NCBI RefSeq assembly: GCF_021228235.1
Contig: NZ_JAJQRG010000001.1
Location: 1-64,000 of the forward strand
DNA: 64,000 nucleotides
Direction of reading: 5' to 3'
From: Pseudophaeobacter flagellatus
Lineage (GTDB): Bacteria; Pseudomonadota; Alphaproteobacteria; Rhodobacterales; Rhodobacteraceae
How positions within the stretch are numbered: position 1 is the stretch's first letter; each line of letters begins with the position of its first letter. Under the pieces are notes generated by a model that was given only the letters and a program-made list of their open reading frames with translations, ran no database searches and had not been told where the DNA came from. Both the position numbers and the translations under genes were made by a program. Below, piece by piece: positions 1-45,751 of the stretch.

Positions 1-430
1 GGTGTAGCTGGTGCCGGATCCCGTCAGCGTCGCGGTGGCATTGGTCAGGGAGAGATCTCCAACGACGAAGTTGGTGCTTGCTTCTGACAGGGTGATCGAC
101 GCGGTGTAGCTGCCAGCAGTCGGCCCCGATAGAGCGCCGATGGTGACAGTCGGCGGCGTACCGTCAAAGACTGCCGTCACCTCATTCGACGCCGTATTGT
201 CGTTGCCCCCCGCATCGGTGAAGCTACCCGCCCCGACCGACAGCGCGATCTGGCCATCGGCCACGGGCGTCAATGTTGCGGTGTAGCTGGTGCCGGATCC
301 CGTCAGCGTCGCGGTAGCATTGGTCAGGGAGAGATCTCCAACGACGAAGTTGGTGCTTGCTTCTGACAGGGTGATCGACGCGGTGTAGCTGCCAGCAGTC
401 GGACCCGATAGAGCGCCGATGGTGATCGTT
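1..430. repeat. Tandem 279-bp coding repeats
   Basis: The sequence at about 1-150 recurs at about 280-429 with only scattered differences (for example cgcggtggc versus cgcggtagc, cggcccc versus cggaccc). The period of 279 bp equals 93 codons, so copy number can change without breaking the frame of the Ig-like protein. Confidence 0.85.
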
Positions 431-1332
431 GGGGGAACAGCCGTCACGTTAATAGTAGCACTTGCTGTACCAGAATTGCCAAGACTGGACGTCAAATCAC
501 CTGAAGCGTTGAAAAAAGAGCCTCCGGCCACCGATGTTACATCTGCTGAAATTGTGCAGCTTGCACCCGCGCCAACTGTACCGCCCGAATAACTTATTGT
601 ACCCGATCCATTCGTGGCAGTGATCGTTCCACCCGTGCAGGTCGTCGAGGCGTTAGCTGGTGTGGCCGCCGTAACATTCGCAGGTAGGTTGTTGGTGAAA
701 CTCAACCCTGTCGCTGCACTGGAACTGGCGGTGTTGTCGATGGTAAAAGTCAAGGTTGAAGTGCCGCCCTCGACAATTGTGCTGGGCGCAAAAGCCGATG
801 TAAAATTCGGAGGAGGATCAGCGCTAACAATGTTCGTGCAATCATTGTCCAATGCAGCAGCATCAAAAGAACCCGAACCAAGTTGTCGGCCATTCGCAGT
901 ATAAGTCGCACCGATCGACTGGTCGGGAGCGTTGGTGTCAACATCATAGACGTAAAAGGTAAAATCTCCGAGCGCAGTTGGCTGAGTTTGGACATTACCG
1001 GCAAAGTCGTTCGCCAGATAGCTGTTTGCAGGTGCGTTAAACGTTGAACTACCGAGGATCACATTGGCTGAATCTGTCAGGTAGAATGCTATCCAATCGA
1101 CGGAACTCCCAAAAGCATCCGTTCCATCAGAAGGACCCGTTGGACCCGTTGCCTGTGCAAGGAATGAGGTCGTAGATCCACCTGCGCCGCAAGTTCCGTC
1201 CGACTGAAGCCGGAAGCTTGAAACAGACACGCTTTGCGCATGGCCGACGCTAACGCTCGCAAGGATCCATAACACCGACGACACAAAACCAAGAAAAACC
1301 CGGAAACGAATTGATTCAATAAAAGCGACCAT
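1..1332 (-). CDS. Secreted Ig-like repeat surface protein (partial, C-terminus outside window)
   Basis: An open frame of 444 codons starts at ATG 1330-1332 and runs off the left edge without a stop. The N-terminus has a charged start, a hydrophobic stretch and an Ala-x-Ala-like cleavage site near residue 32 (GHA before QSVSV), so it is exported. Residues about 175-280 resemble the DUF11/DUF7933-type adhesin domain (FAPSTIVEGGTSTLTFTIDN). From about residue 297 there are tandem bacterial Ig-like (Big_12-type) repeats of 93 residues, each with a VADGQIALSVGAGSFTDAGG signature. Two nearly identical 279-bp units are visible (starting near 1 and 280). Such proteins usually end in an OmpA-like, autotransporter or sorting domain; that end cannot be seen. 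Role is probably surface adhesion or structure (inference). Confidence 0.8.
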   Translation of the reverse strand, partial: MVAFIESIRFRVFLGFVSSVLWILASVSVGHAQSVSVSSFRLQSDGTCGAGGSTTSFLAQATGPTGPSDGTDAFGSSVDWIAFYLTDSANVILGSSTFNAPANSYLANDFAGNVQTQPTALGDFTFYVYDVDTNAPDQSIGATYTANGRQLGSGSFDAAALDNDCTNIVSADPPPNFTSAFAPSTIVEGGTSTLTFTIDNTASSSAATGLSFTNNLPANVTAATPANASTTCTGGTITATNGSGTISYSGGTVGAGASCTISADVTSVAGGSFFNASGDLTSSLGNSGTASATINVTAVPPTITIGALSGPTAGSYTASITLSEASTNFVVGDLSLTNATATLTGSGTSYTATLTPVADGQIALSVGAGSFTDAGGNDNTASNEVTAVFDGTPPTVTIGALSGPTAGSYTASITLSEASTNFVVGDLSLTNATATLTGSGTSYT

Positions 1333-1966
1333 GGCCTCACCATAAAAAAACATTTTCGTCGGAACTCGTACTGCCCTGAAGCGATATTTGTTGAGTCCTT
1401 GTCTGAGGTTGAAGCGTTTATCCTTTAGACTGCAGCAATTTGATCACATTATTTTAACGATCTTGAGATCTCTCTAAAGTTGTGGTTTGATACTCAAACC
1501 TCAGCGGCACTTTTCCTCGGCAGTCGTGATTTCGGTGAAAGTATCAATGCGTCATTGTGAATGTCTGCATTACTCTGTGGATACGAATAATGCAGTTCTT
1601 GCAGCGAAGGCCGACTCCCGCCCTTTCCAGTAGGCACATCCCCTGGGCCTAGTCATGCAAGCGTGGGGCTGCTTCCAGCCCAAACTCGACATCCGTGCAA
1701 GGTGTGGCATTGCGCCAGTCACCGACGCAAAGGGCGGATTGCAGACATTCGCTGCGGGTATGAAACGACGAGCCTGTTGGACGTAAAGCAGACGCAGATC
1801 ACTCTGGGCAGCCTCAAACCTGAGCGCGCGTTGCTCTGCCTCGGTCTTCCAGTCCGCTGCTTCGGTTGCAGATTAGGCTAAAAACACGTTCAACCTCTCG
1901 AAGTAGCGTGCATATTCGAACCCGATGTGCTTGGTTGATAAGCATTAACGTAGAGGCGAGAGCATT
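1333..1966. other. Gene-free intergenic stretch
   Basis: About 630 bp between the divergently oriented Ig-repeat gene and the SIR2 gene. The short open frames here do not look coding. It must hold the promoters of both flanking genes. Around 1735-1762 it contains gcagacattcgctgc, a word of the degenerate intergenic sequence type that recurs elsewhere in the window. Confidence 0.5.
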
Positions 1967-3097
1967 TTGTCAAAAATCAACAAGTCCGATATTTACGATA
2001 AGAATTTGAACTTTTTGCTAGGGTCGGGAGCATCACATGGCCTCTTGCCGACGTTAGCTTTAAAGTTAAAGGTGGATGGGACCGAAATTGCTCACACTGT
2101 AGAAACGCTGGCAACAAAGTATGCAGGCAGCCCAGATATACTGGCACACCTATTCTCATGGTATGTTCAAGAAGTCATATCGCCCGCAGCACAATACGAT
2201 CCCGACGATGTGATCTTTAATACTGCAGAGCAAGACAAAGCAATTGAGAATTATCAAATTTTTCTCAGCACGGTTCTCAAGTTTCTCGCCAAGAAGAAGG
2301 ACAAAAATAGGGCGAATATTTTTACTACAAACTATGATGGGATGATTGCTCACACTGGTGAGCAGTTACTTCGCATCGGCGCATATGACTTTCATCTGAA
2401 CGACGGGGGGGCTGGATTTGTCAAACGAACCCTGAACGCTAGAAACTTTAGTCGATACTATCAAGACCACGGGGTGTTCGATCGGCACGCCAAGAGCGTA
2501 CCACAAATCAATTTAATCCAACTCCACGGAAGCGTCTATTGGTACAAAGACGAAGAAAATATCGAGATATCTTACGACCTCAAGCGTGCGTCAAAGAGAG
2601 TTAATGAAGTACCATGTAGAGAGAGCGAAGCTTTTAAAGCTATCCTGTCAGATGAAACCAAAACAGATTTAGGCTTGGCAGCACTTAACCTTACTTCAGA
2701 AGATCCGCAGGCAAATTTGAGTTTTCAAAGCAGTTACGAAACTTTGCCCGTAGTGAATCCGACCAAGTGGAAATTTCATGAGACTGTGTTCGAAGAGCAC
2801 TATTATCAAATGCTTCGGCTGCTGAGCTATGAGCTAGAAAAACCCGACTCAGTCTTTATCGCCTTCGGCTTCTCTTTTGCAGATGAGCACATCCTAAATC
2901 TAGTCAAACGCTCTTTGTCTAATCCTTCTTTGCAGCTCTTTATCTGCTGTTTTTCCGGCGAGACAGTAAGTGAGATGAAGGGAAAGTTCAAGGGTTTTGA
3001 CAACGTAGAATTTATTACCGTCGATGGTGACCTCGACTTTACTTCGTTTAACAAGGAAGTGTTCAACGTTAGCAGCGAGGGGCTTGCTGTAGAATGA
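1967..3097 (+). CDS. SIR2-domain NADase of a SIR2-HerA anti-phage system
   Basis: A 376-residue SIR2_2-type protein. Visible motifs are the nucleotide-binding GSGAS (residues 19-23), TTNYD (120-124), LHGSVYW with the candidate catalytic His187, and a C-terminal GFSFADEHI typical of defence-associated SIR2 proteins. These enzymes hydrolyse NAD+ when phage infection is sensed, stopping growth of the infected cell (established for the family). The start is TTG at 1967 with GAGG about 10 nt upstream; the in-frame ATG at 1925 is followed by a stop. The stop overlaps the start of the HerA gene (ATGA), so the two are translationally coupled. Base composition is clearly more AT-rich than the core genes, consistent with horizontal transfer. 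Confidence 0.9.
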   Translation: MSKINKSDIYDKNLNFLLGSGASHGLLPTLALKLKVDGTEIAHTVETLATKYAGSPDILAHLFSWYVQEVISPAAQYDPDDVIFNTAEQDKAIENYQIFLSTVLKFLAKKKDKNRANIFTTNYDGMIAHTGEQLLRIGAYDFHLNDGGAGFVKRTLNARNFSRYYQDHGVFDRHAKSVPQINLIQLHGSVYWYKDEENIEISYDLKRASKRVNEVPCRESEAFKAILSDETKTDLGLAALNLTSEDPQANLSFQSSYETLPVVNPTKWKFHETVFEEHYYQMLRLLSYELEKPDSVFIAFGFSFADEHILNLVKRSLSNPSLQLFICCFSGETVSEMKGKFKGFDNVEFITVDGDLDFTSFNKEVFNVSSEGLAVE

Positions 3098-4884
3098 GCA
3101 TCCCAATAGGCGCAGTAATATCTGTAATGGGGGTCGAGGTGGCGGTGAAGGCCTTCGAGAACTCTAACCATGAAACACACTTTCATGGCGGTAAACGCTA
3201 TAAAGGCATCTCGATACGAGAGTTTATTGCAATCGAACATGGTTTTCGCGAAATAGTTTGCACCGTAGAGGGCGAATTTCTGGACGAGAAGAACTACGAG
3301 ACAGAAGGGACAATCAAGACCTTTACGCGAAAATTGAAGGTCAAACCGATTGGCTACTTTGAAGATGGGGCGTTCAAAGATGGGATAAAGTTCCTACCCA
3401 AAATCGGAGACATCGCTAGGCTGTTGTCCGAAGAACAAGTAAGTAACATATTTGAACGCAATACTGTTGAGAGCTATATCATCGGAAAGCTCCTCAAAGA
3501 GGAACTAGCGGTATCCCTTCCGTGGGGACGACTTTTCAACTCTCATCTTGGAATTTTTGGGAACACTGGAAGCGGCAAGTCAAACACTTTGACTAAGCTC
3601 TACACAGTTTTGTTTGACAATAAGATTGAAGCTATGGGAGGCCGTAGCAAGTTTGTGTTTCTGGACTTCAACGGAGAATACACTGGCAACCAGTTGGCAA
3701 GCGAGAACCATAAGAGGGTAATTAGGTTAAAAACGCGAACCGATGATGGTGACAAGTTCGTCTTGCACGAGGATGAGTTTTGGGACGCTGAAACACTGGG
3801 CATTCTTTTTCAAGCAACAGCGAATACGCAAAGACCATTTCTGCGCAGAGTCACATCAGGAAGGAAGAGGTTTGCAAATATTCCTAACAGTCTGAATACC
3901 TATTTACGAAAGACTTTTCGGAACGTTCTGACTTCATCCGACCCGAACCTAGAAGCTCTAGAACTCTTAAAAACACTAGCCAGAAATGTTACTTATGACC
4001 AAGGTCTAATGGACTCACTTGGAAAGGTCGCCCGACAAAGTGGTAACAATACAAGCACATTTCACCATGTAATCGGCCCCGGCGACTGGCGTTTTCTGGC
4101 TAACGATGACAACTTCTATAACTCTGAGTTTGAAGTAAAACTCAACAATATCAACCTGTCCGAAGTATCTGGTTTTAACGAGCTATTGATACGTTCAACC
4201 CTTCAAGTCATTCGAGATGTCCTGTCAGGTTCAGCACAGTACGATCATATCAACCCCCTTCTACGCCGAATAGAAGCTTTGAAAAGCGATTTTTCCAGAG
4301 TGCTGTCCGTTGTGGACAGTGTAGAGGTCGATCCAAAGTTGATAACTGTCATTTCGCTTAGAGAATGCAAGCAGGAAGTAAAAAAGATACTGCCTATTCT
4401 GATTGCCAAACATCACTATGAACAACACAAAGCGGTTGTTGGTTCTCCGCCTACAACAACACTCCATCTTGTAATTGACGAAGCACACAACATTTTATCG
4501 CAGCAGTCGAACCGAGAAGCAGAAAGCTGGAAGGACTATCGACTCGAACTTTTTGAGGAGATTGTCAAAGAAGGACGAAAGTTTGGAGTATTCATCACGC
4601 TTGCAAGCCAGAGGCCTGCGGACATATCACCTACAATCGTGTCTCAGCTCCACAATTACTTCATCCACCGATTGGTGAATGACCGGGACCTAGCCTTACT
4701 CGAAAATACCATTTCGACCCTCGACAGTGTTTCCCGCAGCCAAATCCCTTCGCTCCCACAGGGAGCGTGTGTCGTGACTGGCACCACGTTCGACATACCG
4801 ATGCTTATGCAAATCGACAAACTCCCCGCCAACCGAGAGCCCGACAGTGGCGACGTTCAGCTCGACCAAATCTGGGGAGATTAG
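3094..4884 (+). CDS. herA: HerA-type ATPase partner of the SIR2 protein
   Basis: A 596-residue FtsK/HerA-superfamily ATPase (DUF87). Residues about 1-110 form the N-terminal HAS-barrel-like region; Walker A GNTGSGKS lies at 156-163 and Walker B LVIDEAHN at about 457-464; a downstream segment TLASQRPADIS carries the sensor Gln and an Arg-finger-type region follows near the C-terminus. Family members form hexameric DNA-translocating ATPases; in SIR2-HerA systems the ATPase assembles with SIR2 into a large complex needed for defence (established for characterised pairs). It overlaps the SIR2 stop by 4 bp. No third gene is visible in the operon. A DUF4297-HerA system is excluded because the partner is a clear SIR2 protein. 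Confidence 0.9.
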   Translation: MSIPIGAVISVMGVEVAVKAFENSNHETHFHGGKRYKGISIREFIAIEHGFREIVCTVEGEFLDEKNYETEGTIKTFTRKLKVKPIGYFEDGAFKDGIKFLPKIGDIARLLSEEQVSNIFERNTVESYIIGKLLKEELAVSLPWGRLFNSHLGIFGNTGSGKSNTLTKLYTVLFDNKIEAMGGRSKFVFLDFNGEYTGNQLASENHKRVIRLKTRTDDGDKFVLHEDEFWDAETLGILFQATANTQRPFLRRVTSGRKRFANIPNSLNTYLRKTFRNVLTSSDPNLEALELLKTLARNVTYDQGLMDSLGKVARQSGNNTSTFHHVIGPGDWRFLANDDNFYNSEFEVKLNNINLSEVSGFNELLIRSTLQVIRDVLSGSAQYDHINPLLRRIEALKSDFSRVLSVVDSVEVDPKLITVISLRECKQEVKKILPILIAKHHYEQHKAVVGSPPTTTLHLVIDEAHNILSQQSNREAESWKDYRLELFEEIVKEGRKFGVFITLASQRPADISPTIVSQLHNYFIHRLVNDRDLALLENTISTLDSVSRSQIPSLPQGACVVTGTTFDIPMLMQIDKLPANREPDSGDVQLDQIWGD

Positions 4885-5093
4885 AAGATGTTAAGGAAAA
4901 TTTGGGTCAGTCCTTCAGAGCCAGAACCAAATATCGAATTCTTAGGGAAGTCCCGTACAGTGCTAGTTCGCATAGGTTTTGATTTTGCAACTGCGGCGGA
5001 AGTCCGGTCTGATGGGCCGCACCGCAGCATCCAAAATTTGGCTGGACGTCGGTTCTGGGCCGTCCCCGCCTCAATGTTGCGGTCGGTTCCCTA
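4885..5093. repeat. Degenerate dispersed intergenic sequence
   Basis: Between the HerA gene and the first insertion sequence. The segment at 5014-5035 (gggccgcaccgcagcatc core) matches 42399-42421 closely (gggccgcgccgcagcatc) with similar flanks. No coding frame is convincing here. Confidence 0.45.
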
Positions 5094-5156
5094 GGGTCAG
5101 GACCCATTAATTTCCGTATGGCGGCGTGATTCATCGGTCGAAAATTGAGCGATGAT

Positions 5157-5504
5157 ATGAGCGATCTTTTCTGGCTGACGGACGCGCAGATGGCGCGTTT
5201 GGAGCCCTACTTTCCGAAGCCCCATGGCAAACCACGTGTGGATGATCGGCGTGTGCTGAGTGGCATTATCTTCATCAATCGCAATGGCTTGCGCTGGCGA
5301 GATGCCCCCAAGGAGTATGGTTCGCACAAGACCCTGTACAATCGCTGGAAGCGATGGAGCGACAAAGGGGTCTTTGCCCAGATCATGATGGGTCTGGTCG
5401 CCGAGCATAGCGAGGAAAAGACCGTCATGATTGACGCTACCTATTTGAAGGCCCACCGCACCGCGACCAGTATGGGCGTCAAAAAAGGGGGCGTGGACGT
5501 TTGA
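5157..5504 (+). CDS. IS5-family transposase, N-terminal frame (OrfA), copy 1
   Basis: Encodes MSDLFWLTDAQMARL..., the N-terminal DUF4096-type half of an IS427 transposase, including the first catalytic Asp in VMIDATYLKAH. The ATG at 5157 is preferred to the upstream TTG at 5145 because it matches the start of copy 2. The frame contains an A6G5 run at 5481-5491; a -1 slip there joins it to the next frame and gives the full transposase. Confidence 0.85.
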   Translation: MSDLFWLTDAQMARLEPYFPKPHGKPRVDDRRVLSGIIFINRNGLRWRDAPKEYGSHKTLYNRWKRWSDKGVFAQIMMGLVAEHSEEKTVMIDATYLKAHRTATSMGVKKGGVDV

Positions 5505-5914
5505 TCGGTCGGACCAAGGGTGGTATGAACACCAAATTGCATGCCGTCTGTGACAGCCAGGGGCGTCCGCTGAACCTTTTCGTCACGGCTGGTCAGGTCA
5601 GCGACTATATCGGCGCACGGGCTTTGCTCAGCAGTCTGCCGAACGTCGATTGGTTACTTGGTGACAGGGGCTATGACGCTGACTGGTTCAGAGAAGCCCT
5701 GCAAGACAAGTGCATACGGCCATGCATCCCGGGGCGAAAGCAACTCAAGACGACAGTGAAATACGACAAGCGACGGTACAAGCGTCGCAACCGGATCGAG
5801 ATCATGTTCGGCAGGCTGAAAGACTGGCGACGGGTCGCAACCCGATATGACCCCTGCCCCAAAGTCTTCCTTTCGGCAATCGCCCTCGCCGCAACTGTCA
5901 TTTATTGGTTATGA
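5501..5914 (+). CDS. IS5-family transposase, C-terminal DDE frame (OrfB), copy 1
   Basis: The downstream frame holds the remaining DDE residues: the second Asp in LLGDRGYDADWF and the Glu in RNRIEIMFGRLKDW. It lies in the -1 frame relative to OrfA and overlaps it, so it is probably expressed as a frameshift fusion. It ends just inside the right inverted repeat. No internal stop is seen, so the element may still be active. Confidence 0.85.
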   Translation: MIGRTKGGMNTKLHAVCDSQGRPLNLFVTAGQVSDYIGARALLSSLPNVDWLLGDRGYDADWFREALQDKCIRPCIPGRKQLKTTVKYDKRRYKRRNRIEIMFGRLKDWRRVATRYDPCPKVFLSAIALAATVIYWL

Positions 5915-6003
5915 GTCCTGAACCTAGGGGTGCTATAGGCATCCATCATGGCCCTTGCAATCACACTAATCCTACCCCCACGGGGTCTAAATGCTGTTCC
6001 GAT

Positions 6004-6156
6004 TTACTTTCCCTTGCCTGAGCGCATGAACATCCAAAACAGCACAACACAAGAGAGAGAAATCGGAACCATAATGTCGGTATAGATGTGTAGTTCACGA
6101 AGCAAATACCAAAGACCAAAGGCCACAATCGGTACTAAGCGTACTAGAATATCCAT
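6004..6156 (-). CDS. Small two-helix membrane protein between two IS copies
   Basis: A 50-codon frame from ATG 6154-6156 to TAA 6004-6006. It encodes MDILVRLVPIVAFGLWYLL..., with two hydrophobic stretches (residues about 4-19 and 28-44) and a basic C-terminus (RSGKGK). AAGGA lies about 12 nt upstream of the start. It follows the truncated gene at 6171-6333 by 14 nt on the same strand, so the two were probably one operon before the IS landed. No family recognised. Confidence 0.5.
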   Translation of the reverse strand: MDILVRLVPIVAFGLWYLLRELHIYTDIMVPISLSCVVLFWMFMRSGKGK

Positions 6157-6170
6157 TTCATCCAAAATCC

Positions 6171-6333
6171 TTATCTGTAAAATCCAGGAGGAATACCATT
6201 AGCATTCTTTGGAAAGCGGCCACTAAATGCCGGCAACTTGTCGGCACTACTGTAGGGGAAATCCTGCCAAGACTCATCTATAGAATAACAGACCCCGCCT
6301 TCTCTCTTGCAAGCCCTTTTGCAAAATCCTCTA
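6171..6333 (-). pseudogene. C-terminal fragment of a gene cut by IS copy 2
   Basis: A coding-like frame enters from the IS boundary and ends at TAA 6171-6173. The readable product includes CKREGGVCYSIDESW and ends GIPPGFYR. The 5' part is missing where the IS427 element inserted. It is followed by the small membrane-protein gene. The original protein is not recognised. Confidence 0.4.
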
Positions 6334-6408
6334 GGCTCAGGACCTATTAATCGGCTTGAGATCGCATTGGTTGCATGATTCAAATCCCCAAACTTTCAGG
6401 GGGGTATC

Positions 6409-6756
6409 ATGAGCAATCTTTTTTGGCTGACCGACGAACAGATGGCGCGTCTGCGTCCGTTCTTCCCCAAGAGCCATTGCAAGCCGAGGGTCGATGATCG
6501 GCGGGTGTTAAGTGGGATAATTTTCATCAATCGCAATGGCTTACGGTGGTGCGATGCACCGAAAGAATATGGCCCGCCGAAGACGCTCTATAATCGCTGG
6601 AAACGCTGGAGCGAGATGGGTGTTTTTGCCAGGATGTTTGAAGGGTTGGCCGCAGAGGCGACGGCCCCGACGACAATCTTGATCGACGCGACCTATCTCA
6701 AAGCCCATCGCACGGCATCAAGCCTGCGGGGTAAAAAGGGGGGCGTGGGCGCCTGA
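6409..6756 (+). CDS. IS5-family transposase, N-terminal frame (OrfA), copy 2
   Basis: 115 residues beginning MSNLFWLTDEQMARL, with the first catalytic Asp in ILIDATYLKAH. The frame contains an A5G6 run at 6733-6743, the likely -1 frameshift site joining it to the DDE frame. A good ribosome-binding sequence (ggggg) lies just upstream of the ATG. Confidence 0.85.
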   Translation: MSNLFWLTDEQMARLRPFFPKSHCKPRVDDRRVLSGIIFINRNGLRWCDAPKEYGPPKTLYNRWKRWSEMGVFARMFEGLAAEATAPTTILIDATYLKAHRTASSLRGKKGGVGA

Positions 6757-6776
6757 TCGGGCGGACCAAAGGTGGC

Positions 6777-7166
6777 ATGAACACCAAGTTGCATGCCATC
6801 ACCGACACCGACGGGCGGCCCATCCGCTTCTTCATAACGGCTGGCCAGATCAGCGACTATACAGGTGCGGCGGCTCTTCTGGGCTACATGCCGAAAGCCC
6901 AGTGGCTTCTGGGAGATCGCGGATATGATGCCGACTGGTTCCGCGAAGCCCTGCAGGATATGGGGATCAGGCCCTGCATCCCGGGCCGAAAGGCACGAAA
7001 GAAACCCGTCAAATACGACAAACGCCGCTACAAGCGCCGCAATCGCATCGAGATCATGTTCGGGCGCCTGAAGGATTGGCGGCGGGTCGCCACGCGATAC
7101 GACCGCTGCCCCGAAGTCTTCCTATCCGCCATCGCTCTCGCAGCTACGGTCATGTTTTGGTTATGA
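6777..7166 (+). CDS. IS5-family transposase, C-terminal DDE frame (OrfB), copy 2
   Basis: Contains LLGDRGYDADWF and RNRIEIMFGRLKDW with the second Asp and the Glu of the catalytic triad. The -1 frame relative to OrfA is open upstream of this first ATG, as expected for a frameshift fusion product. It is intact up to the right inverted repeat. Confidence 0.83.
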   Translation: MNTKLHAITDTDGRPIRFFITAGQISDYTGAAALLGYMPKAQWLLGDRGYDADWFREALQDMGIRPCIPGRKARKKPVKYDKRRYKRRNRIEIMFGRLKDWRRVATRYDRCPEVFLSAIALAATVMFWL

Positions 7167-7450
7167 GTCCTGAGCCTAAACACTATGACCTCGTCGGGAA
7201 ATTTCTTGGTCTGGTCTGCGCGACACTCTGTAGATCATGGCAGACGACCGCTTCGTACCGCTCTGCCGCCGTTGGCCCCAAAATTTCGCTGCACCTCTCA
7301 TCAATGACCGCTTCTCACGCGGCATCGCCTGGGCGACATGGGCAACAAAGTCGGGGCTAAGGGCGATTTTGAAGTCGCACATAGCCGTTAGTATCACTCC
7401 GAATCAGGTATACCCAATCTCCAAACCACATTGAAAATAAATGGAAATCA

Positions 7451-7500
7451 TTTGATTGTGGATCAGGAGGTCGCCCGTTCGAACCGGGCAGGTGGTACCA
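7451..7500 (+). tRNA. 3' half of a tRNA with GTG anticodon (His-like), island attachment scar
   Basis: The 50 bp fold as anticodon arm (tttga / loop ttgtgga / tcagg, anticodon GTG), a 5-nt variable loop, a perfect T arm (gcccg ttcgaac cgggc), the 3' acceptor strand aggtggt and ACCA. No 5' acceptor strand or D arm precedes it. Alphaproteobacterial tRNA-His genes can carry A73, so the discriminator fits. Integrases commonly recombine in tRNA 3' ends, leaving such a fragment at the far end of the element. It is a remnant, not a functional tRNA. Confidence 0.7.
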
Positions 7501-7631
7501 TTTACCGCTCTATATGCATAATGAGATATGGCATCACCGCTTGTACCAGGCGATTGATAGGCTGTTATCTTTGATGGGGTGCGGTGTATTCCTGTGCTTT
7601 CTGACTTTGCTATTGATCGTGGGATTTGACT

Positions 7632-8582
7632 ATGCCGAATTCGGTTCTTTATGTTCGCAACTCAGGTTTTGGGGACATGCTGCGCCAGATAAATGTCTTC
7701 TTTCATTTGGCTGATATTTATTCGTTCAACCCCACGATATGCTTTCCTCGCAACAACAATAGAAACAGTCTGGGGAATGCGACGCTCTTCAAAGAGGTGG
7801 GGTTCGCGGACATAACTGCCCACGGCCCGGGTTTGCCTCGGGAGCAGGTGGGCAGCCTTGCTGATATATCATCCCGGGTAGAGGGCGCATATAGATTTGA
7901 TGCGCGCTGCTACAATAGCTCTGATTTCGCCAGAGTACTGGGGGAAAGGGCGCAGGAAAGACACCCCAAGCTGCGCGCGTTAGCGCTGCAAAGCAGCCTG
8001 TATGCCGAGATTGCAAAGCGGCAAGAGGGCAACAAGAACCGTATCGTTGTGCATGTCAGGCGGGGGGATGTTGCGCAGGTATGTCTCAGAGAATTTACTG
8101 ATATATTTGATGAAAATTCCGTTGCGGGAAAGGTCCTGCATTGTCGGGGGCTGTTTGATGCAGCCTCTTTGCGAGAGGATCTCCCCTATAGCAACCGGCG
8201 CAGGTTTGCCAGTGTGCCGTCCTATCTGCAGGCGCTGAATTTAGCTAAGGAACAACAGGGGGCAGGAAGCCATGTGCTGATTTCAGATGGGTTCAGCAAG
8301 ATCGCCCGCGTTGTGGGTGAACAACATGCCGATCTGCTTGTTGATGGCAGCCTGTCGGTTGGAGCGTTGGAAAAGGCGTTTGAAAACGAATTACGCCCGT
8401 TGATGCTTGGGGCAAGCCGGGAAATTATCGGCGAAAGCAGCGCTGCCTTTCTTGACGTCATTTATGCGGCATTGACCGCCAGGGTCATTGTTTCGCAATC
8501 ACCGGGGTTTTTGAAAGAGCTTGCCCGGTTGTTCGAGCTGGATATTGAGTTTGTCTATCCTGAATTTCAGCCGCGCATGTGA
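7632..8582 (+). CDS. Fucosyltransferase/NodZ-like glycosyltransferase
   Basis: About 316 residues from ATG 7632 (a TTG two codons earlier is also possible). The N-terminus NSVLYVRNSGFGDMLRQ resembles the donor-side start of GT-B fucosyltransferase-like proteins, and VVHVRRGDVAQ matches the HxRxGD donor-binding motif of the GT11/GT23/GT65 group. It probably transfers a sugar to a surface or secreted glycan; substrate unknown. It is the first gene to the right of the tRNA scar, and stands alone. Confidence 0.55.
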   Translation: MPNSVLYVRNSGFGDMLRQINVFFHLADIYSFNPTICFPRNNNRNSLGNATLFKEVGFADITAHGPGLPREQVGSLADISSRVEGAYRFDARCYNSSDFARVLGERAQERHPKLRALALQSSLYAEIAKRQEGNKNRIVVHVRRGDVAQVCLREFTDIFDENSVAGKVLHCRGLFDAASLREDLPYSNRRRFASVPSYLQALNLAKEQQGAGSHVLISDGFSKIARVVGEQHADLLVDGSLSVGALEKAFENELRPLMLGASREIIGESSAAFLDVIYAALTARVIVSQSPGFLKELARLFELDIEFVYPEFQPRM

Positions 8583-8654
8583 GGCGCGGCCTTGCCTGCA
8601 GGCCTTTGCCCGGGGCTGTGGGGGCGCCTCTGTTGGGCCTTGAGGCTGGTGGCG

Positions 8655-8957
8655 CTATTTAATGTTGATCTTCTGGCGCACTTCATGGCTTTCAGGGTCG
8701 AGGATCAGGATCTGATTCTGTGTTGTGATCACGGCAATCCAGCCAGTCCCGAAGGTCACTGCCTGCGCGGTTGTGCCTGTGGGCAGGGTAATTTCGGCGG
8801 GCAGGCGGGGCCCATCGGCAGACAAGCGGATGACAAGCAGGCTAATTACCACTACAAGCCCGCCAATCATCACCACGGTCAGGGTGGTCACCAGTCGACG
8901 CAGAAATCTGAGCTGCGCAGGCTCTTCTAGAATTTCAGGCTTGGAAGGATCAGTCAT
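8655..8957 (-). CDS. DUF6476-type small membrane-anchored protein
   Basis: A 100-residue protein starting MTDPSKPEILEEPAQL, with one hydrophobic helix at about residues 22-44 and a predicted outer domain containing a short beta-propeller-like strand pattern (GWIAVITTQNQILILDP). It matches a conserved Rhodobacterales family of unknown role. Its start codon overlaps that of the divergent rluD gene by two bases (8956-8957). Confidence 0.7.
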   Translation of the reverse strand: MTDPSKPEILEEPAQLRFLRRLVTTLTVVMIGGLVVVISLLVIRLSADGPRLPAEITLPTGTTAQAVTFGTGWIAVITTQNQILILDPESHEVRQKINIK

Positions 8958-9993
8958 GGGCAGCCGCCAGATTGAGTTTGTCATTGCGGAAAACCCGCCT
9001 AAACGGCTTGATAAAGCGGTTTCACGTGATGTGCCAGAGGAAGCGACGCTTTCTCGGACCCGGCTGGCGCGCCTGATCGAGGCCGGCAGTGTGCAAATCG
9101 ACGGCGTGGTTGTGCAGGATGCCAAGGCCCGTGTCGCCGAGGGCGCGCAGGTCTCCATCACGGTGGAAGAGGCCGAGGACAGCCATATCGGCCCTGAAGA
9201 CATCACACTGAATGTGATTTTTGAAGACGATGATCTGATCGTGATCAACAAACCTGCGGGCATGGTGGTGCATCCCGCACCGGGGACGCCATCGGGTACG
9301 TTGGTCAATGCATTGCTACATCATTGCGGGGACAAGCTGTCCGGTGTCGGTGGCGTCAAACGCCCCGGAATTGTGCACCGTATTGATAAAGAGACCTCTG
9401 GCCTCTTGGTGGTGGCCAAATCCGATGTGGCGCATCAGGGGCTGGCAGCGCAGTTTGAAAAGCATACGGTAGAACGCTATTACCGGGCCATCTGCTATGG
9501 GGTGCCAGATGCCAATGATCCGCGGCTGCGCGGGGTCAAGGGCACCAGTTTTGAACCCGGCAACATCTTGAAGCTGACAACGCAGCTGGCACGGCATAAA
9601 TTTGACCGCCAGCGTCAGGCAGTGCTGTTTCAGGGCGGTCGCCATGCAGTGACACGGGCGCGCATTGTGCAACCCTTTGGCACACCGCCCGTGGCAGCCT
9701 TGATCGAATGCTGGCTGGAAACCGGGCGCACTCATCAGATCAGGGTGCATATGACCCATGCCGGTCACAGCCTGGTGGGCGACCCGACCTATGGCGGCAA
9801 ACGCAAGCTGGCAGCCAAATCACTGACCCCTGCGGCCATTGCTGCAGTGCAGGGGTTTCCCCGTCAGGCGCTGCATGCGGCGGTGTTGGGTTTTGTCCAC
9901 CCTGTCAGCGGTGCGGCGCTGCGATTTGAGGCCCCGTTGCCCGATGATATGGCAGGCTTGATTGATGCTCTATCTCAACCCGTTGAAAAGTAA
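8956..9993 (+). CDS. rluD: Ribosomal large subunit pseudouridine synthase (RluD-type)
   Basis: 345 residues from ATG 8956. An N-terminal S4 RNA-binding domain (about 15-75) is followed by the RluA-family catalytic domain with HRIDKETSGLLVVAK, whose Asp is the nucleophile, and GRTHQIRVHM. RluD converts uridines of helix 69 in 23S rRNA; the subgroup call rests on the S4 domain and overall length. An upstream in-frame extension is not used because the start overlaps a divergent gene. It is followed by a palindrome and rpoH. Confidence 0.88.
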   Translation: MGSRQIEFVIAENPPKRLDKAVSRDVPEEATLSRTRLARLIEAGSVQIDGVVVQDAKARVAEGAQVSITVEEAEDSHIGPEDITLNVIFEDDDLIVINKPAGMVVHPAPGTPSGTLVNALLHHCGDKLSGVGGVKRPGIVHRIDKETSGLLVVAKSDVAHQGLAAQFEKHTVERYYRAICYGVPDANDPRLRGVKGTSFEPGNILKLTTQLARHKFDRQRQAVLFQGGRHAVTRARIVQPFGTPPVAALIECWLETGRTHQIRVHMTHAGHSLVGDPTYGGKRKLAAKSLTPAAIAAVQGFPRQALHAAVLGFVHPVSGAALRFEAPLPDDMAGLIDALSQPVEK

Positions 9994-36659: not shown

Positions 36660-36735
36660 GCCCCTATAGCTCAGCTGGTAGAGCAACTGATTTGTAATCA
36701 GTAGGTCCGCGGTTCGAGTCCGTGTGGGGGCACCA
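36660..36735 (+). tRNA. tRNA-Thr (anticodon TGT)
   Basis: A complete cloverleaf: acceptor gcccct(a)/tggggggc-type pairing, D arm gctcagctggtagagc, anticodon arm ctgat ttgtaa atcag with TGT, T arm cgcgg ttcgagt ccgtg, and encoded CCA. It marks the left border of an accessory region, as tRNA genes often do. Confidence 0.95.
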
Positions 36736-37427: not shown

Positions 37428-38018
37428 GGCTTGAGAAGCTAGTTAAGGCCGCTCTGAGCCAGTGCAAGTGACTAACATGTAGGCCTGCAATTGGCCCAAG
37501 TTGACCACTATGGGTCGATAAGATGGGCGGAAACCGGACCTTAGCTGCGTCAGCGAAGGTAATGTGCCAGAATTGCAAAAGCGGCCATTCAAGCTGTAGC
37601 GATCGAAGCCCCTATGCTGCGCTGCGCACCAAGGTCGGCTGTGCGCAGAGAGCGACCTTTGCAAACCCAGCCTTCCCATGACCCCAAGTGATCACCGCCG
37701 CCCCCATAAGCCGACCTTTACCGCAGCTGCAGCCGTAGGATGTTATGCGATGGCGGCTCAGCGAACAAAGGAGCCAGTCCCAACATGGCTCCAGCGGATT
37801 TTCATTGCAATCACCGGAAATGGAGAGAATGCCGTTGAAATCAGATAGTGACATTTGCAAAGTGTGGCGACCGGCCCTGAGCTGGCGTGTCCCTATTGCA
37901 AGTTTTCTGCTGCGAAGCTTGCCCGAAGCAGACTTTGACTGAGTTTCCAGTCTCCCCAAATATGGCACCTGCTGATTGTGACGTTCATCGAGGCGAGACT
38001 GGGTTAAGCCTCCACAGA
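37428..38018. other. Gene-free stretch with degenerate dispersed-repeat words
   Basis: About 590 bp. The open frame on the minus strand that crosses it (to 38190) overlaps the HEPN gene in another frame and looks non-coding. Words such as ggtcggctgtgcgcagagagcgacctttgc fit the decayed repeat-like sequence seen in other gaps (given here only as description). Confidence 0.4.
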
Positions 38019-38624
38019 CTATTGACCGAACGACTTCTTTACTTCGTTCAGGAAAGTACGCATAGCCTTGCGGTACCTGAACAACATGGGTGTCCCAATA
38101 ATCAACCGATCTCCAAATTCGGGTGGAGGAGATACAAAATCTTTCACGATATTGATTGACCGCTCGTTCCATTGCCCCCCAGCATGGCAAAGCACATTCC
38201 GAACAGCAATCATTTCCAAGCAGGCGTCACGCGACCACTCGAACCTATCATCCACGTAAGTGTAAAGTTTCTCGACTTTGGATTGCGGGTATTCACCAGC
38301 CTTTGTCGACAGCTCCAGCAGCGCTTCCGACATCATCTCATCGAAAATTACAACTAGGTCTTGAAGCAACATCTTGACTACATTTTGAGCGATTGGCTCA
38401 AAATTTTTAGCCGGGTCACGTCGAAATGTTACTTTTGCGCGCCCAAAATCCTCATCCAAGAGAGGAGAAGAGAACGAGCATTTTGGTTCGAACCAATTTC
38501 CGCACGAGATGATGGTTTCACCTAAATTTTCCCTATTGGAAAATCCATTATTCTTCGCCACATCTAATGCATAGAGGACAGTATACAGAGTCGATGTCCA
38601 CGAGTTCACTCGCTCCCAATTCAA
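38019..38624 (-). CDS. HEPN-like protein with R-x4-H motif, putative RNase
   Basis: 201 residues. The start is TTG at 38622-38624 with AGGAG about 10 nt upstream. A long helical region is followed by EMIAVRNVLCHAGG, in which Arg142 and His147 match the R-x4-H signature of HEPN ribonucleases found in toxin and abortive-infection systems. No antitoxin-like neighbour (for example MNT) is visible. Function inferred from the motif and the defence-rich context only. Confidence 0.5.
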   Translation of the reverse strand: MNWERVNSWTSTLYTVLYALDVAKNNGFSNRENLGETIISCGNWFEPKCSFSSPLLDEDFGRAKVTFRRDPAKNFEPIAQNVVKMLLQDLVVIFDEMMSEALLELSTKAGEYPQSKVEKLYTYVDDRFEWSRDACLEMIAVRNVLCHAGGQWNERSINIVKDFVSPPPEFGDRLIIGTPMLFRYRKAMRTFLNEVKKSFGQ

Positions 38625-38677
38625 AGGCGTATCTCCTCATAGTCACCTATCCGGCAGACATGTAGTAATTTCACAAG

Positions 38678-38863
38678 GTGCTTGAAACGTTCAATATTGC
38701 GAGCGGCCTAGAGCTTCCATTCGCGTCCCCATGCGGGGCTTTCCAGTCTGTCATGTTATTCGCTGTCGCTGAAGGCCAGACATTGCGTGACGCGGCCCTT
38801 GCTGCGGGCGCTGACCCCGAGGCCAACCAATTTATTGTGGGCATTTCCGAAGCCTGTGTCTAA
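38678..38863 (+). CDS. Short hypothetical ORF
   Basis: 61 codons (GTG start) in antisense position, touching the end of the membrane-protein gene. The C-terminal half (EGQTLRDAALAAGADPEANQ) has a protein-like composition, but no family or good ribosome-binding site is seen. Confidence 0.25.
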   Translation: MLETFNIASGLELPFASPCGAFQSVMLFAVAEGQTLRDAALAAGADPEANQFIVGISEACV

Positions 38864-39408
38864 GGATCATCCTTTTTGAAAATCAGTGGTTTCGCATATT
38901 CTGCGTCGAATACTTCATGAGCGCGTTTCAAGACCATCGCGACAGTCAGGAGAAAATGCACATAGAGCGCAATTAGGATACCCGCCTCCACTACTTCCGG
39001 GATAGGTGCCGCAAAAAAAACAAGAAATACCGTGACGGCAACACACGAAACAAAAATCAAGTAGGAAACGTTAGCGTTGATTTCCCTTAAGAGTTTGCGA
39101 GTATCTTCAGCCTTTTCGCGTTGATCGCGATCCAAAATAGCGTCGCCAGTTACTTTACGATCAGACCGAAATACTCCGTACATGGCGACTTGAACGCTAA
39201 AAAGCAAAGCCGAAAAAATCGCGAATACCGAGATAGAGGCTGAATACACCTCTGAGGAAAGTTTCAAACAGGCGAACCAGCTAGCAATACCCAAAGCAAT
39301 TGGAAAGCCATAGAAAACAAGAATATCCAGACAGCTCACCTTTGCATCGCCAAGATTTCGGAGTGTTTCGAAGTGAGCCTTTAAGACCGAAGTCAATCCA
39401 ATTTTCAT
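38860..39408 (-). CDS. Four-helix membrane protein, putative effector of a two-gene cassette
   Basis: 182 residues from ATG 39406-39408. Four predicted membrane helices lie at about 28-48, 57-79, 116-137 and 141-162, with a charged cytoplasmic segment between helices 2 and 3 (DRDQREKAEDTRKLL). The layout recalls S-4TM-type membrane effectors of bacterial defence systems, but no family can be assigned. Its start overlaps the stop of the upstream gene (TGATG), so the two proteins are made together. Confidence 0.6.
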   Translation of the reverse strand: MKIGLTSVLKAHFETLRNLGDAKVSCLDILVFYGFPIALGIASWFACLKLSSEVYSASISVFAIFSALLFSVQVAMYGVFRSDRKVTGDAILDRDQREKAEDTRKLLREINANVSYLIFVSCVAVTVFLVFFAAPIPEVVEAGILIALYVHFLLTVAMVLKRAHEVFDAEYAKPLIFKKDDP

Positions 39409-40322
39409 CACCGCATTCCGTATTGCTCGCGGAAGTCACCAATAACACGGGTAGTCACTTCCGCAACCGATGCAAGAGTCGGGTGCTGATTTGCGCCCAA
39501 AATTACATCGTCGCTTATGTCAATAACGCCCGCATTGTTAGACGGACCTACTATACCCACCTTCATATAGGTGCCCCCGATTGCCACCATTGCACTGGCC
39601 TCATCAAACTCTATCCCGTCAAAAACAAAAGCCGCTCCGCCTCGCGCCCCTCTTATTTGCGGTGCAACATCTGAGAATACGCCGAAACGGCCATTTCTGA
39701 GAACCGAAAAAGACAGTTCGACATTCAATTCTTCCGGCGGCAGGTTTCGAAGGATTTCAGCACGATCCTTAGGGACACGTTTCTTTGACAATATCAATTT
39801 CTTAACAGGAGAGTTTCGGTAAACAGCGTCATTTGCAGGCATTACTTTTCGAGGCGTAAGTTTGACATTGTCATACCTCTGATTGAACTCTCGTGCTAGT
39901 TCGCCAAGAACTTGGCCAACGCAAGAACGGTCTCTGAACGATTGGAATGCAGCGAAGCCGAAGTTGCCGTTCTCAGGAACCCAAAACTTGTAATAGAGTG
40001 GAATTTCTTCAACATGGTTCGCACTTCGGTTAAAGAGAATCTCTCTCCCTTCTTCACCCTCGGGATCGATAATGTCTGAGCTAAATCCATAGGTTCCGTA
40101 GCGGACTATCCCATGACGACTTCTCCCGTCGTCGTCCTCTGGAACGAGCCGCCAGCTACGCTCAATGTTATTGTTTTGCATCGACGTTCGTTTTCCGCGC
40201 ACAAAAAGCGGTAAAAATTCGTTGAGTTCTGACCCTAAACCTTCGGTGGCCAACTGGACTGGCTGGTGATTGTGCGCGTGGCTAAGGCAAAGCTGATATA
40301 CGTACATGCCGATTTTGCTCAT
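39408..40322 (-). CDS. Uncharacterised soluble partner of the four-helix membrane protein
   Basis: 304 residues from ATG 40322 (MSKIGMYVYQLCLSH); an 11-codon longer form from a GTG is possible. No membrane helix. The middle (RSFRDRSCVGQVLG-like stretch at about 125-150) and the C-terminal half (KKLILSKKRVPKD, VFDGIEFDEASAMVAIGG) show no motif I can name. Coupled to the downstream membrane gene by TGATG. A sensor-effector arrangement is an inference from layout and neighbourhood. Confidence 0.55.
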   Translation of the reverse strand: MSKIGMYVYQLCLSHAHNHQPVQLATEGLGSELNEFLPLFVRGKRTSMQNNNIERSWRLVPEDDDGRSRHGIVRYGTYGFSSDIIDPEGEEGREILFNRSANHVEEIPLYYKFWVPENGNFGFAAFQSFRDRSCVGQVLGELAREFNQRYDNVKLTPRKVMPANDAVYRNSPVKKLILSKKRVPKDRAEILRNLPPEELNVELSFSVLRNGRFGVFSDVAPQIRGARGGAAFVFDGIEFDEASAMVAIGGTYMKVGIVGPSNNAGVIDISDDVILGANQHPTLASVAEVTTRVIGDFREQYGMR

Positions 40323-40694
40323 AGAAATTCCAATATAACTTGCAATAAAGAACACTAGACTTAGAGGCTAAGGGGTTACAACCTCTACGCGTCTCTAGCC
40401 AGGACTTTTGCGTGTTCCAGTCGCCTTTCTCACCTTCCACTCCTCAGAGGTTGCGATGAGCCAAGAACACACTCTTGTCAAACAACGCTATTTGGATCAG
40501 GACTTGAAGTGAATGGCCGCTTTAAGAGGGCAGGAACAAAAAATCTCGTTCGCAGCGAAAGCACGGTTTCCGCCCGTGGTGTCGGAACGTCATGTCTGCT
40601 TTGGGCTGATTGCTGTCAGCCGCACATGGGACCTAAATAAGCGTTGCAGGACCAATAGGCCGCCAGCGCTTCCTCGCGGACCGTTACCGTGAGG
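40323..40694. other. Intergenic stretch with a possible gene remnant
   Basis: A short plus-strand frame ending in a TGA at about 40510 reads VAFLTFHSSEVAMSQ then EHTLVKQRYLDQDLK and lacks a proper start; it may be the tail of a lost gene. Further right are degenerate dispersed-repeat words (tgtctgctttgggctg). Confidence 0.3.
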
Positions 40695-41402
40695 CTATGA
40701 CAGGCTATTGATTATGTCCGCGCCAAGTGATCGAGTGTTCTTCATGTTCCCAGATCCATTGAGAATATCGACACCAACTTGCTTGGCAATGTCCCGAAGA
40801 ACAGGCTTTGTGACTTCCTGAACCATGCCATCTGTCTCCACCAAAATTGAACCGTTCTCATACTGAACAATCCGGTGTGATTTAAAATTTGCACTCCCGG
40901 TCTCTTTAAGTCTTTTAAGCTCTGAGACAGATAGACGTTGGCGCCCTGTGTTAGACGCCTGCTCGGCACCTCCTTCCGCCCGCCAACCGCTGATAGGCAC
41001 AATATAGTTGCCATCTCCGCTTGCACCCCTCTTGCGGATTTCATCTGCGGGACAGTCGAGTATTTCTTCAATAGAAACTGCATCATCTTCAACCACCAGT
41101 CGGAGGATAATCACGCGCTGCACGATATCGAAAGTGCTGGCACGAAACTTTACATGATTCGAGCTGGTGACCGTTTTGACCGAAATGTACTCCCCCTCCA
41201 TCGACACAACATCGTAGCCACGTTGGTTTGTGGCCAGAGCCATTTGCCCTCGCGTCACCATTGCCGCGTAAAGTTCTCCAATCCTACCTGTCAAGTGGCC
41301 TAACTCACCTGGAGGGACGCCCCATCCGATTTCTTTTTCAAACCACTCAAGAGCCTGTCCAAGTGAACGAATTATTTGAGTTTGTGAAAGTGCTTGAGAC
41401 AT
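40695..41402 (-). CDS. DUF6998-like protein, possible nuclease fold
   Basis: 235 residues. The segment GELYAAMVTRGQMALATNQRGYDVVS followed by EYISVKTV has the spacing of a PD-(D/E)xK-like core (Asp then x-K), though the usual Glu/Gln before the Lys is replaced by Ser, so catalysis is doubtful. Related Rhodobacterales proteins are annotated as hypothetical or DUF6998. Stands alone on the minus strand. Confidence 0.55.
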   Translation of the reverse strand: MSQALSQTQIIRSLGQALEWFEKEIGWGVPPGELGHLTGRIGELYAAMVTRGQMALATNQRGYDVVSMEGEYISVKTVTSSNHVKFRASTFDIVQRVIILRLVVEDDAVSIEEILDCPADEIRKRGASGDGNYIVPISGWRAEGGAEQASNTGRQRLSVSELKRLKETGSANFKSHRIVQYENGSILVETDGMVQEVTKPVLRDIAKQVGVDILNGSGNMKNTRSLGADIINSLS

Positions 41403-41527
41403 AATTCTTCATACCGACATTTGTTCATAGAATCGTTGAGAATATCCATGAACATTTTTTGGGTAACAAGATGAACTTGCCCTCGTTTAATGACCATGTC
41501 TGGCAGGTGCAGCGTCACCTTGGTCAT
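41372..41527 (-). CDS. Short ORF overlapping the DUF6998-like gene start
   Basis: 51 codons from ATG 41527: MTKVTLHLPDMVIKRGQVHL... with a His/Lys-rich end. It ends 31 bp inside the next gene in another frame. Could be a small upstream gene or the tail of a lost one. The rest of 41403-41698 is gene-free. Confidence 0.3.
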   Translation of the reverse strand: MTKVTLHLPDMVIKRGQVHLVTQKMFMDILNDSMNKCRYEELCLKHFHKLK

Positions 41528-41698
41528 CTGAGCGGTTCGAAGGTCCGCTCTCCGGAAAACCTTCGCGACTGCAGCGTGCCTGTGCTGCACCTCGCGTGAA
41601 TGTCGTGACTGGGCTGAGACGCATCGACCGAAATATAGGACGCGGCCTCGGGCTCTACGTCAGCTAACGGCCCATCGTCGTTGTGACGCGGCTCCTAT

Positions 41699-42226
41699 CT
41701 AGCAGCCACCATAGTTTTTCCGACCGCTGGCGGTGATCGTATAGGTTCCGCCTCGTGGCCCGACATAGCATCGGCTTGATCTGCGAATTGATCGCGTTGT
41801 TTTACTCCCTTTTGAAGCGACGCGTTTGAGCTGCGCGCCCCACTCACAAGCCAGTCCATCACCATCACGATCGAGGCCATTCCTGTCTCCGACAGGGCCG
41901 CCTGACGTCAAGAAGAATTTCTGCGCAGCAGCCGCACTTGCGAAGTCCGAACAATCCCTATCACCTGCTTCGTCAACTTCTCGGGCGTACAATTGGCGGC
42001 CATATGCTGATCCAGTAGTTCGGCCTAGAAAGTCACTATAGGTGTTCGTCTCTCCTCGAGTAGCGAGTTCAACCTCGATAAGACTTAGCTCAAGTGGCTC
42101 GGAAGTTGTGTAGTGCAGACTCCAGAGATGAGACGTTGACAGGCTTTCAAAACGTTTGGCGGCAATCGGCGCTGAAACCGTTGCACAGCCCGCAATTAGC
42201 AGGGTGGTAAGAAGAGCTATTCGCAA
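41699..42226 (-). CDS. Excalibur-domain lipoprotein
   Basis: 175 residues from a TTG at 42224-42226 preceded by AAAGGAG. The lipobox is LIAGC (Cys at residue 14), so the protein is lipid-anchored. The calcium-binding excalibur motif is clear: DCSDFASAAAAQKFF ... DRNGLDRDGDGLACEW. Excalibur domains often accompany nucleases or sit alone in surface proteins. The longer upstream frame lacks a start and signal. Confidence 0.75.
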   Translation of the reverse strand: MRIALLTTLLIAGCATVSAPIAAKRFESLSTSHLWSLHYTTSEPLELSLIEVELATRGETNTYSDFLGRTTGSAYGRQLYAREVDEAGDRDCSDFASAAAAQKFFLTSGGPVGDRNGLDRDGDGLACEWGAQLKRVASKGSKTTRSIRRSSRCYVGPRGGTYTITASGRKNYGGC

Positions 42227-42650
42227 AAAAACTATCTCCTTTGAGGTATATCTCAATAAGGAGAACCTTAGGTTGGAACTCGAACAGTGTCTATATAGGC
42301 TGGGAGCAACCAACTGTGTTGATCTAGCGATCGGCTCTTTTGTCCGCGTTGCCGAGCTCCGATTATTGCCGGGGTTCGCATTTACGGCGAACGGCGGGTT
42401 CGACGGGCCGCGCCGCAGCATCAAGAACCAACGATGAAGGTCCGGAATGGGCCGTTGATGTCGGTGGCACCAAGCGCGCGCATAGGCGGAGCGACCGGCA
42501 AGACCGTCGGCTCTACGTAGTTTGCTGCCATTGCAATAAATCGGCCGCGTTAGAGCACCTTTGAGAATGACTGTCAGACGCCGCCATCACTACTAGCTGC
42601 GGCGAAGGCCCGCTTCGATCCAAGTTACACTTTCCTGCAACGCCTTTTAG
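42227..42650. repeat. Gene-free stretch with degenerate dispersed sequence
   Basis: 42399-42421 matches 5014-5035 closely, followed by gaaggtccggaatgggccg. No coding frame is convincing. Confidence 0.45.
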
Positions 42651-43088
42651 CTAGAATAACATCTTGTACACATTACCTCTTGTATCCTTGGCGATCCCAT
42701 ACCCATTGGCGGTGCCGCTACCAGTGAAAAACTCAATATCAAACCGCGTATTATCAGAGCAGGTAGAGAATGCCTGCCCTCTATTCACACCCGGCAGGTT
42801 TCCTACAGTCGTGGAATAGCCAGCTACTGAACCATATTCTGCGAAGAGCGTTCCAGTTGTGACGCTCGCAAATTGGGGTGCAACAGAAGACCACTTGCCC
42901 GAACAAGCAGAGCCATTTGGCATTGTAAAGTTAAAGTTTCCGGTATTTCCAGTTATCCCGTCAACCGTCGCAATCAATGTTGGAATTGGGTTTTCTTCTG
43001 TCAGTGGTCCTGAGATTGGGTACAAGTTTGCCGTTGTCGAGCAAGCCGCCAGACCAAGCAAAAATACAAACGAAAATCGATGGTGCAT
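42651..43088 (-). CDS. Small lipoprotein, hypothetical
   Basis: 145 residues from ATG 43088. MHHRFSFVFLLGLAAC gives a lipobox LAAC with Cys at residue 16. The mature part is Gly/Thr-rich and beta-like (NFNFTMPNGSACSGKW, FDIEFFTGSGTANGYGI). No family assigned. The 280 bp on its left hold no gene. Confidence 0.6.
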   Translation of the reverse strand: MHHRFSFVFLLGLAACSTTANLYPISGPLTEENPIPTLIATVDGITGNTGNFNFTMPNGSACSGKWSSVAPQFASVTTGTLFAEYGSVAGYSTTVGNLPGVNRGQAFSTCSDNTRFDIEFFTGSGTANGYGIAKDTRGNVYKMLF

Positions 43089-44517: not shown

Positions 44518-44639
44518 TGGTGTGGTTCCTTGTGGGGGCTGTATTTCCAGAGGGGGGTGCTACAATCACCCCCCTTTTTCGGCGGATGCCGCGTTGTGCT
44601 GTGAATTTTGGAAAGCTGCTGGGGGGCTGCCCGCCGTGA

Positions 44640-45749: not shown

Positions 45750-45751
45750 CC

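Follow-up and report, generated by a model that had tools for sequence, protein, structure and literature searches.

A probable SIR2-HerA abortive-infection system carried by a degraded tRNA-His-integrated element in Pseudophaeobacter flagellatus

The published SIR2-HerA complexes consist of twelve SIR2 and six HerA subunits, and the helicase is required for NADase activity, according to the available part of one study (PMC11559045). In the same part, the exchanges N168A or H227A are reported to abolish immunity by the Nezha system of V. cholerae (PMC11559045). Gao19 homologues of S. thermophilus share a mutual identity of only 17.9% (SIR2) and 22% (HerA); in the accessible portion of the report, similar activity towards L. 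cremoris phages and different activity towards streptococcal phages is described (PMC12322248). Thus, divergence of this extent is normal in the family, and specificity is not readable from sequence. A statement on the trigger of SIR2-HerA systems was not found in the portions surveyed of the published accounts.

An earlier note had described a SIR2-HerA pair in the window, i.e. the whole stretch of 64,000 nucleotides analysed here. Both open reading frames were located on the plus strand. The gene of a predicted SIR2-family NADase (1967-3097, 376 amino acids, TTG start) is intact, as the note had claimed, and is followed by the gene of a HerA ATPase/translocase, predicted to be hexameric (3094-4884, 596 amino acids, ATG start). 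The reported ATGA overlap of stop and start was confirmed, with the bases 3094-3097 (plus strand) shared by the two genes. Searches with defence-system models, proposed in the note as a check, matched both proteins well above chance level. The best-fitting known models were PADLOC PDLC04089 for SIR2 (1.8e-50, 170 bits) and PDLC04097 for HerA (3e-171, 569 bits, residues 4-595 of 596), and no difference from these models was found. With Pfam, the first protein matched SIR2_2 (5e-6, 27.1 bits, above the cut-off of 24.5) and the second DUF87 (1.6e-13). The scores for the NCBIfam equivalogs SIR2_antiphage and HerA_antiphage (NF042942 and NF042943) were 62.9 of 500 and 118.5 of 800 bits, i.e. below the cut-offs. 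Hence, the pair belongs to a different subfamily and is related to these equivalogs, not a member of them.

Family models, linkage, active-site residues and folds support the reading of the note. The pair is very probably a two-gene abortive-infection system of the SIR2-HerA type (Nezha, Gao_19) and cargo of a degraded element integrated at tRNA-His. This kind of system is already known; the pair is distant from its solved members.

The SIR2 protein contains the motifs GSGAS (19-23), FTTNYD (119-124, with Asn122) and LHGS (186-189, with His187). By profile alignment to PDB 8j4u, counted manually, Asn122 corresponds to residue 168 and His187 to residue 227 of the E. coli SIR2. Both residues were conserved in all 56 rows of an alignment, composed of the window, nine plasmid pairs and 46 hand-picked full-length sequences from 76 two-gene loci. 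The candidate catalytic His187 of the earlier note therefore stands. These residues also bear on the question whether SIR2 might act mainly as a nuclease, together with HerA on phage DNA, instead of killing by loss of NAD+. A review (PMC12198126), as far as its text was available, attributes nuclease and ATPase activities to Sir2-HerA and suggests that phage genes are degraded. The conservation of the NADase residues in 56/56 rows argues against this, as does the abolished immunity of V. cholerae after alteration of these residues, described in the available part of PMC11559045. Furthermore, no separate nuclease domain was detected in either protein with Pfam. A mainly nucleolytic SIR2 is thus quite improbable, and the NADase reading is retained.

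The folds were compared by means of AF2 models, as the note had suggested, and for both proteins they match components of solved SIR2-HerA systems. For the SIR2 model (pLDDT 90.9), all 35 Foldseek matches against the PDB at E<=0.001 were SIR2 chains of SIR2-HerA systems, with 13-18% identity. Among them are E. coli complexes, SIR2 alone (8sxx), PsSIR2 (8w9l) with its complexes, and 8yhx, which contains SIR2 chains despite its title 'trimeric HerA'. The first match beyond these 35 was the Sir2 deacetylase 1szc (1.0e-3). PADLOC, Pfam and fold therefore agree in placing the first protein inside the SIR2 family, where the note had put it.

With regard to the TTG start of SIR2, the SIR2 frames of two related loci, L022 and L028, have their first start codon at the same position. 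In a third, L017, this position is an internal TTG, downstream of the annotated start. Judging from the start codons, SIR2 may be characteristically subject to weak initiation in this small group of four. Compared with L017, the SIR2 gene differs most at third codon positions (0.63; first 0.27, second 0.17), the pattern expected of genes kept functional.

The second protein was described in the note as a HerA ATPase with Walker A and B motifs, and this description holds. Walker A (GNTGSGKS) was located at 156-163, Walker B (VIDEAH) at 460-465 and the additional motif WKDYRL at 479-484. K162 and S163 of Walker A and D462 and E463 of Walker B were conserved in all 55 rows of the HerA alignment, which comprises the same sets as the SIR2 alignment minus one row, the window included. 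For the HerA model (pLDDT 88.4), the Foldseek ranks 1-16 were HerA chains of SIR2-HerA systems, 8wiv and 8wld among the PDB entries being identical in sequence, followed by HerA-NurA and DUF4297-HerA. The TM-scores of about 0.43-0.72 and the large rmsd indicate a shared fold, not close kinship.

The later ranks bring up the idea that HerA serves DNA-end processing of the HerA-NurA type or a DUF4297-type system, and that SIR2 is an incidental neighbour. The HerA folds of those systems (9x1m, 9c1m, 8ziq, 4d2i) also match the model, and DUF4297-HerA (9c1m, 8ziq) has a HerA motor of related fold. However, its partner is the nuclease DUF4297 and not SIR2, and the HerA proteins of 9c1m and 8xau, the latter presumably a DUF4297-HerA as well, are placed on a separate branch. 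The partner protein in the window matched SIR2 families; a DUF4297 match was not found with PADLOC and Pfam, nor a NurA match with Pfam, and the gene following HerA encodes an IS transposase. The first sixteen fold ranks belong to SIR2-HerA systems. The linkage to SIR2 recurs in other genomes. In public genomes, 296 HerA loci were confirmed and the best 80 analysed; a SIR2-profile frame lies upstream on the same strand in 76 of these 80, a rate valid for this branch only, as the loci were picked by likeness to the query, and one from loci that are not all independent, since HerA is identical in L052-L054 and in L074-L075. An incidental SIR2 neighbour is therefore barely credible. Contrary to what would refute the note, relatives of this HerA do lie beside SIR2 genes, and the two genes are treated in the following as one SIR2-HerA system.

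Of the four loci without SIR2, three (L056, L085, L094) are cut off by the end of the contig, at HerA or immediately ahead of it; in the fourth (L057) HerA is truncated. L050 and L086 have a short SIR2 frame, L032 and L062 a split one. The SIR2 stop lies at most 200 nt from the start of the HerA frame in 73 of the 76 two-gene loci; the exceptions are L062 and L098, with split HerA frames, and L076, where the genes are 1.6 kb apart. The ATGA junction was present in 28 of the 76. In all eight plasmid records closest in HerA the genes lie side by side, and the plasmid whose SIR2 and HerA are both closest to those of the window comes from a species of the Rhodobacterales. The distance matrices of SIR2 and HerA (55 pairs) were correlated with r=0.95, compared to a maximum of 0.39 in 2000 permutations. 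According to these sequence distances, SIR2 and HerA travel together; the value is not proof of contact, and shared descent contributes to it.

Within the genus and beyond, HerA matches at E<=0.001 were obtained for 11 of 60 genomes, the own genome included. Only the own genome spans residues 1-596; the other ten gave partial matches with 24-35% identity. No full-length match was found in the other 11 genomes of the genus, and no second HerA of the same family at E<=0.001 in the own genome. At class level, 3 of 385 genomes had a match at 1e-50, again including the own genome, and in both others a SIR2-profile frame is present in the HerA locus too. In 50,697 phage records, searched at 1e-5, SIR2 had no match and HerA two partial ones (22% and 23% of the query). 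The PHROGs families matching the two proteins are phrog_35569 and phrog_7035.

Some neighbourhoods of pairs in other genomes were also observed. On a plasmid of Vibrio coralliilyticus (L021, 4033-15903), a second SIR2, a SLATT protein and McrBC-type genes are annotated around the SIR2-HerA pair; this region is a plasmid defence island. In Persicobacter (L023, 1930-13004), the genes of a type I restriction-modification cluster surround the pair, with N6_Mtase/HsdM_N and Methylase_S genes upstream and a HSDR_N gene downstream. The pairs of L130, L131 and L132 each adjoin a recombinase gene and two of them a Tn3-family transposase, as if carried by transposons.

The system of E. coli and V. cholerae (Nezha; 8j4u, 8sub, 8uae) is like the pair in having two genes, the SIR2 fold, an Asn/His active site and HerA Walker A and B. 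It differs by an identity of 15-18% in the fold matches listed for E. coli, and the Walker B of the 8j4u HerA is EEAH without a W-x-DYRL motif, whereas the window HerA has DEAH with this motif. Among solved structures, 8yhx/8yho, which we take to be the S. aureus system of Zhen et al., was the best sequence match for both proteins. However, the scores were only 39 bits for SIR2 and 110 bits for HerA (phmmer), W-x-DYRL is absent and its HerA is placed outside the branch of the window.

This branch was delimited in a rapidly computed tree with 64 HerA rows, 55 of which, chosen by likeness to the query, form the branch. The window HerA groups with L017, L022 and L028 (four rows, SH-aLRT 100), and then with a mostly proteobacterial set; L017 is a Paroceanicella plasmid, and its HerA is 69% identical to that of the window. 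Outside the 55-row branch are five HerA proteins from the PDB and the other SIR2-HerA pairs L130-L133 from plasmids of Enterobacteria and Listeria (SH-aLRT 100, branch length 2.46). For 8j4u, 8yho and 8wiv long-branch warnings were obtained, and only the position outside the branch was drawn from the placement of the PDB sequences; 8ziq, 4d2i and 9x1l were left out of the tree.

The motif W-x-DYRL follows Walker B in 78 of the best 80 of the 296 HerA loci; it is missing in L086 and in L066, the latter a fragment that ends ahead of the motif. It was found in none of the four pairs L130-L133, in none of ten HerA frames of relatives with other HerA genes (L006-L015; one stretch in L006 is a possible chance match) and, checked by eye, in none of the five PDB chains. 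The HerA of L134 carries the motif, and L135 has WKSYRL instead. DEAH in Walker B was also considered as a mark of the lineage, and dropped, as L133 and some other HerA genes share it. The branch with W-x-DYRL covers many phyla and has no close solved relative. Since residues 471-480, which overlap the motif in part, have a mean pLDDT of 51 in the monomer model, the loop may reasonably be guessed to have a role at an interface or in DNA contact. That it is a switch contacting DNA or a partner, absent from the solved systems, and that the branch thereby has a different phage signal or a different route of SIR2 activation, is a rather doubtful proposal. As an alphaproteobacterial pair on a branch that lacks close solved relatives, the pair of the window can usefully serve as a second point of reference, and its lineage-specific loop is open to mutation.

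Both genes are open and linked, the active-site and ATPase residues are conserved, and the folds match SIR2-HerA components. We infer phage protection, NAD+ loss and the trigger of the pair. SIR2 subunits and a HerA ring would form one large complex, in which the NADase is kept inactive. Phage infection would give a signal, probably sensed by the HerA translocase, that shifts the ring and opens the SIR2 pocket. Active SIR2 would then deplete NAD+ in the infected cell, which is thought to stop the phage. Due to the distance from the solved systems (13-18% SIR2 identity, best HerA match 110 bits), details of activation may differ.

The pair lies on AT-rich DNA beside insertion sequences and a tRNA scar, in agreement with the earlier note. 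The G+C content is 43.5% for SIR2 and 45.7% for HerA, compared to 58.7% for window positions 9000-30000. Downstream of HerA, two IS5-type elements were found on the plus strand, with approximate ends set by eye. The first (5093-5930, PF13340 2.1e-24) has related inverted ends, GGGTCAGGACCCATTAA and TTATGAGTCCTGAACC, and its transposase is encoded in the overlapping frames 5145-5504 and 5501-5914; the second lies at 6337-7178 (PF13340 2.6e-21). They are 75.7% identical over 775 bp, and transposase domains (DUF4096, 'IS4/5 family') are encoded at 5145-5504 and 6409-6756. As to a third gene of the operon, the frames directly after HerA (4888-5094 and overlapping ones) are short and run into the IS, and this candidate was rejected.

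The scar at 7453-7500 (plus strand) is a copy of the tRNA-His 3' end, identical in 48/48 bp to the intact gene elsewhere in the genome (G000:C24:342383-342459), and represents the far-end attachment repeat. It was not called as a tRNA gene by ARAGORN. The only Rfam match in 1-9000 up to E=1 was a tRNA at 7435-7489 below threshold (24.1 of 29 bits), which proved to be the scar; a known RNA upstream of the pair was thus discarded. The contig with the intact tRNA-His, C24, ends 3.4 kb after this gene, and the contig of the window, C1, begins 7.45 kb before the scar. Towards the end of C24 lie an integrase remnant (164 amino acids, phrog_1 2.5e-5 over 82 residues, without Pfam match), a gene for a phage endolysin (Phage_lysozyme, 2e-38) and a Big_12 protein that is cut off by the contig end, its C-terminal part being present. 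At the start of C1 (1-1332, minus strand), the N-terminal part of a large Ig-like protein (Big_12/DUF7933; PF25564 1.4e-37, PF19078 3.5e-16) also runs off; this upstream neighbour is probably in the same element as the pair. Because the Big_12 parts are on the same strand and C24 ends with the same 45 bases with which C1 begins, the contigs are very likely neighbours, joined via a repeat of undefined copy number. The duplication of the tRNA 3' end at the far border is that of a tRNA-integrated island. Of the integrase only the C-terminal remnant was seen; the element is split between two contigs, and unassembled content is possible. The SIR2-HerA pair is located within an integrative element that has degraded.

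With the surrounding element decayed, expression is not assured, and the genes could be silent cargo that no longer defends the strain. The remnant integrase and the two adjoining IS elements fit such a state. Moreover, no promoter stands out: 4 promoter-like sites were found with 4.2 expected, in a scan for sigma-70 patterns only, and candidate promoters and terminators were rejected with counts at the shuffled expectation. On the other hand, both frames are open with the tested motifs present, and substitutions are mostly at third positions, a pattern that a recently arrived gene could show as well. Silent cargo is accordingly unlikely, and a defending SIR2-HerA system is preferred. A recent arrival is consistent with the low G+C content, and with the finding that none of the other 11 genomes of the genus gave a full-length match.

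The gene to the right of the scar encodes a pseudouridine synthase (PseudoU_synth_2 8e-31) and was named rluD by eye. Among 11 genus relatives searched, six have tRNA-His and the rluD match on one contig, at distances of 0.17 kb (G002), 0.58 kb (G009), 1.3 kb (G006), 2.3 kb (G003), 3.6 kb (G007) and 30.5 kb (G008). G001, G005 and G011 have them on separate contigs, and the listing for G004 and G010 contained no tRNA-His match. In G003, G005 and G008, degenerate tRNA-His repeats lie beside rluD. This arrangement resembles an integration hotspot whose cargo here is the SIR2-HerA pair, and defence cargo of the genus may be sought at the tRNA-His site. Apart from this site and the branch position, the pair is an ordinary, well-supported annotation.

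Some minor observations concern this site and the neighbouring DNA. At the same tRNA-His site of G008 (C8:43400-76000, L125-L126), about 30 kb are present, in which a scan of three frames gave genes of metabolism or transport (AMP-binding, DctM, solute-binding protein). Between scar and pseudouridine-synthase gene, a frame of 318 amino acids (7626-8582) had no Pfam or PADLOC match; in G002, tRNA-His and the match of this synthase gene are only 0.17 kb apart. Upstream of SIR2, a stretch of 75 bp (1601-1675) recurs with 82% identity elsewhere in the genome, at C22:385267-385341, and is a candidate repeat or gene remnant. A second block of low G+C (38001-46000, 0.465-0.566 per kb) starts about 1.3 kb after a tRNA-Thr (36660-36735). 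Its seven scanned frames gave no PADLOC match; the domains detected were DUF6998, Excalibur and, weakly, PIG-F, and the block is possibly another island.
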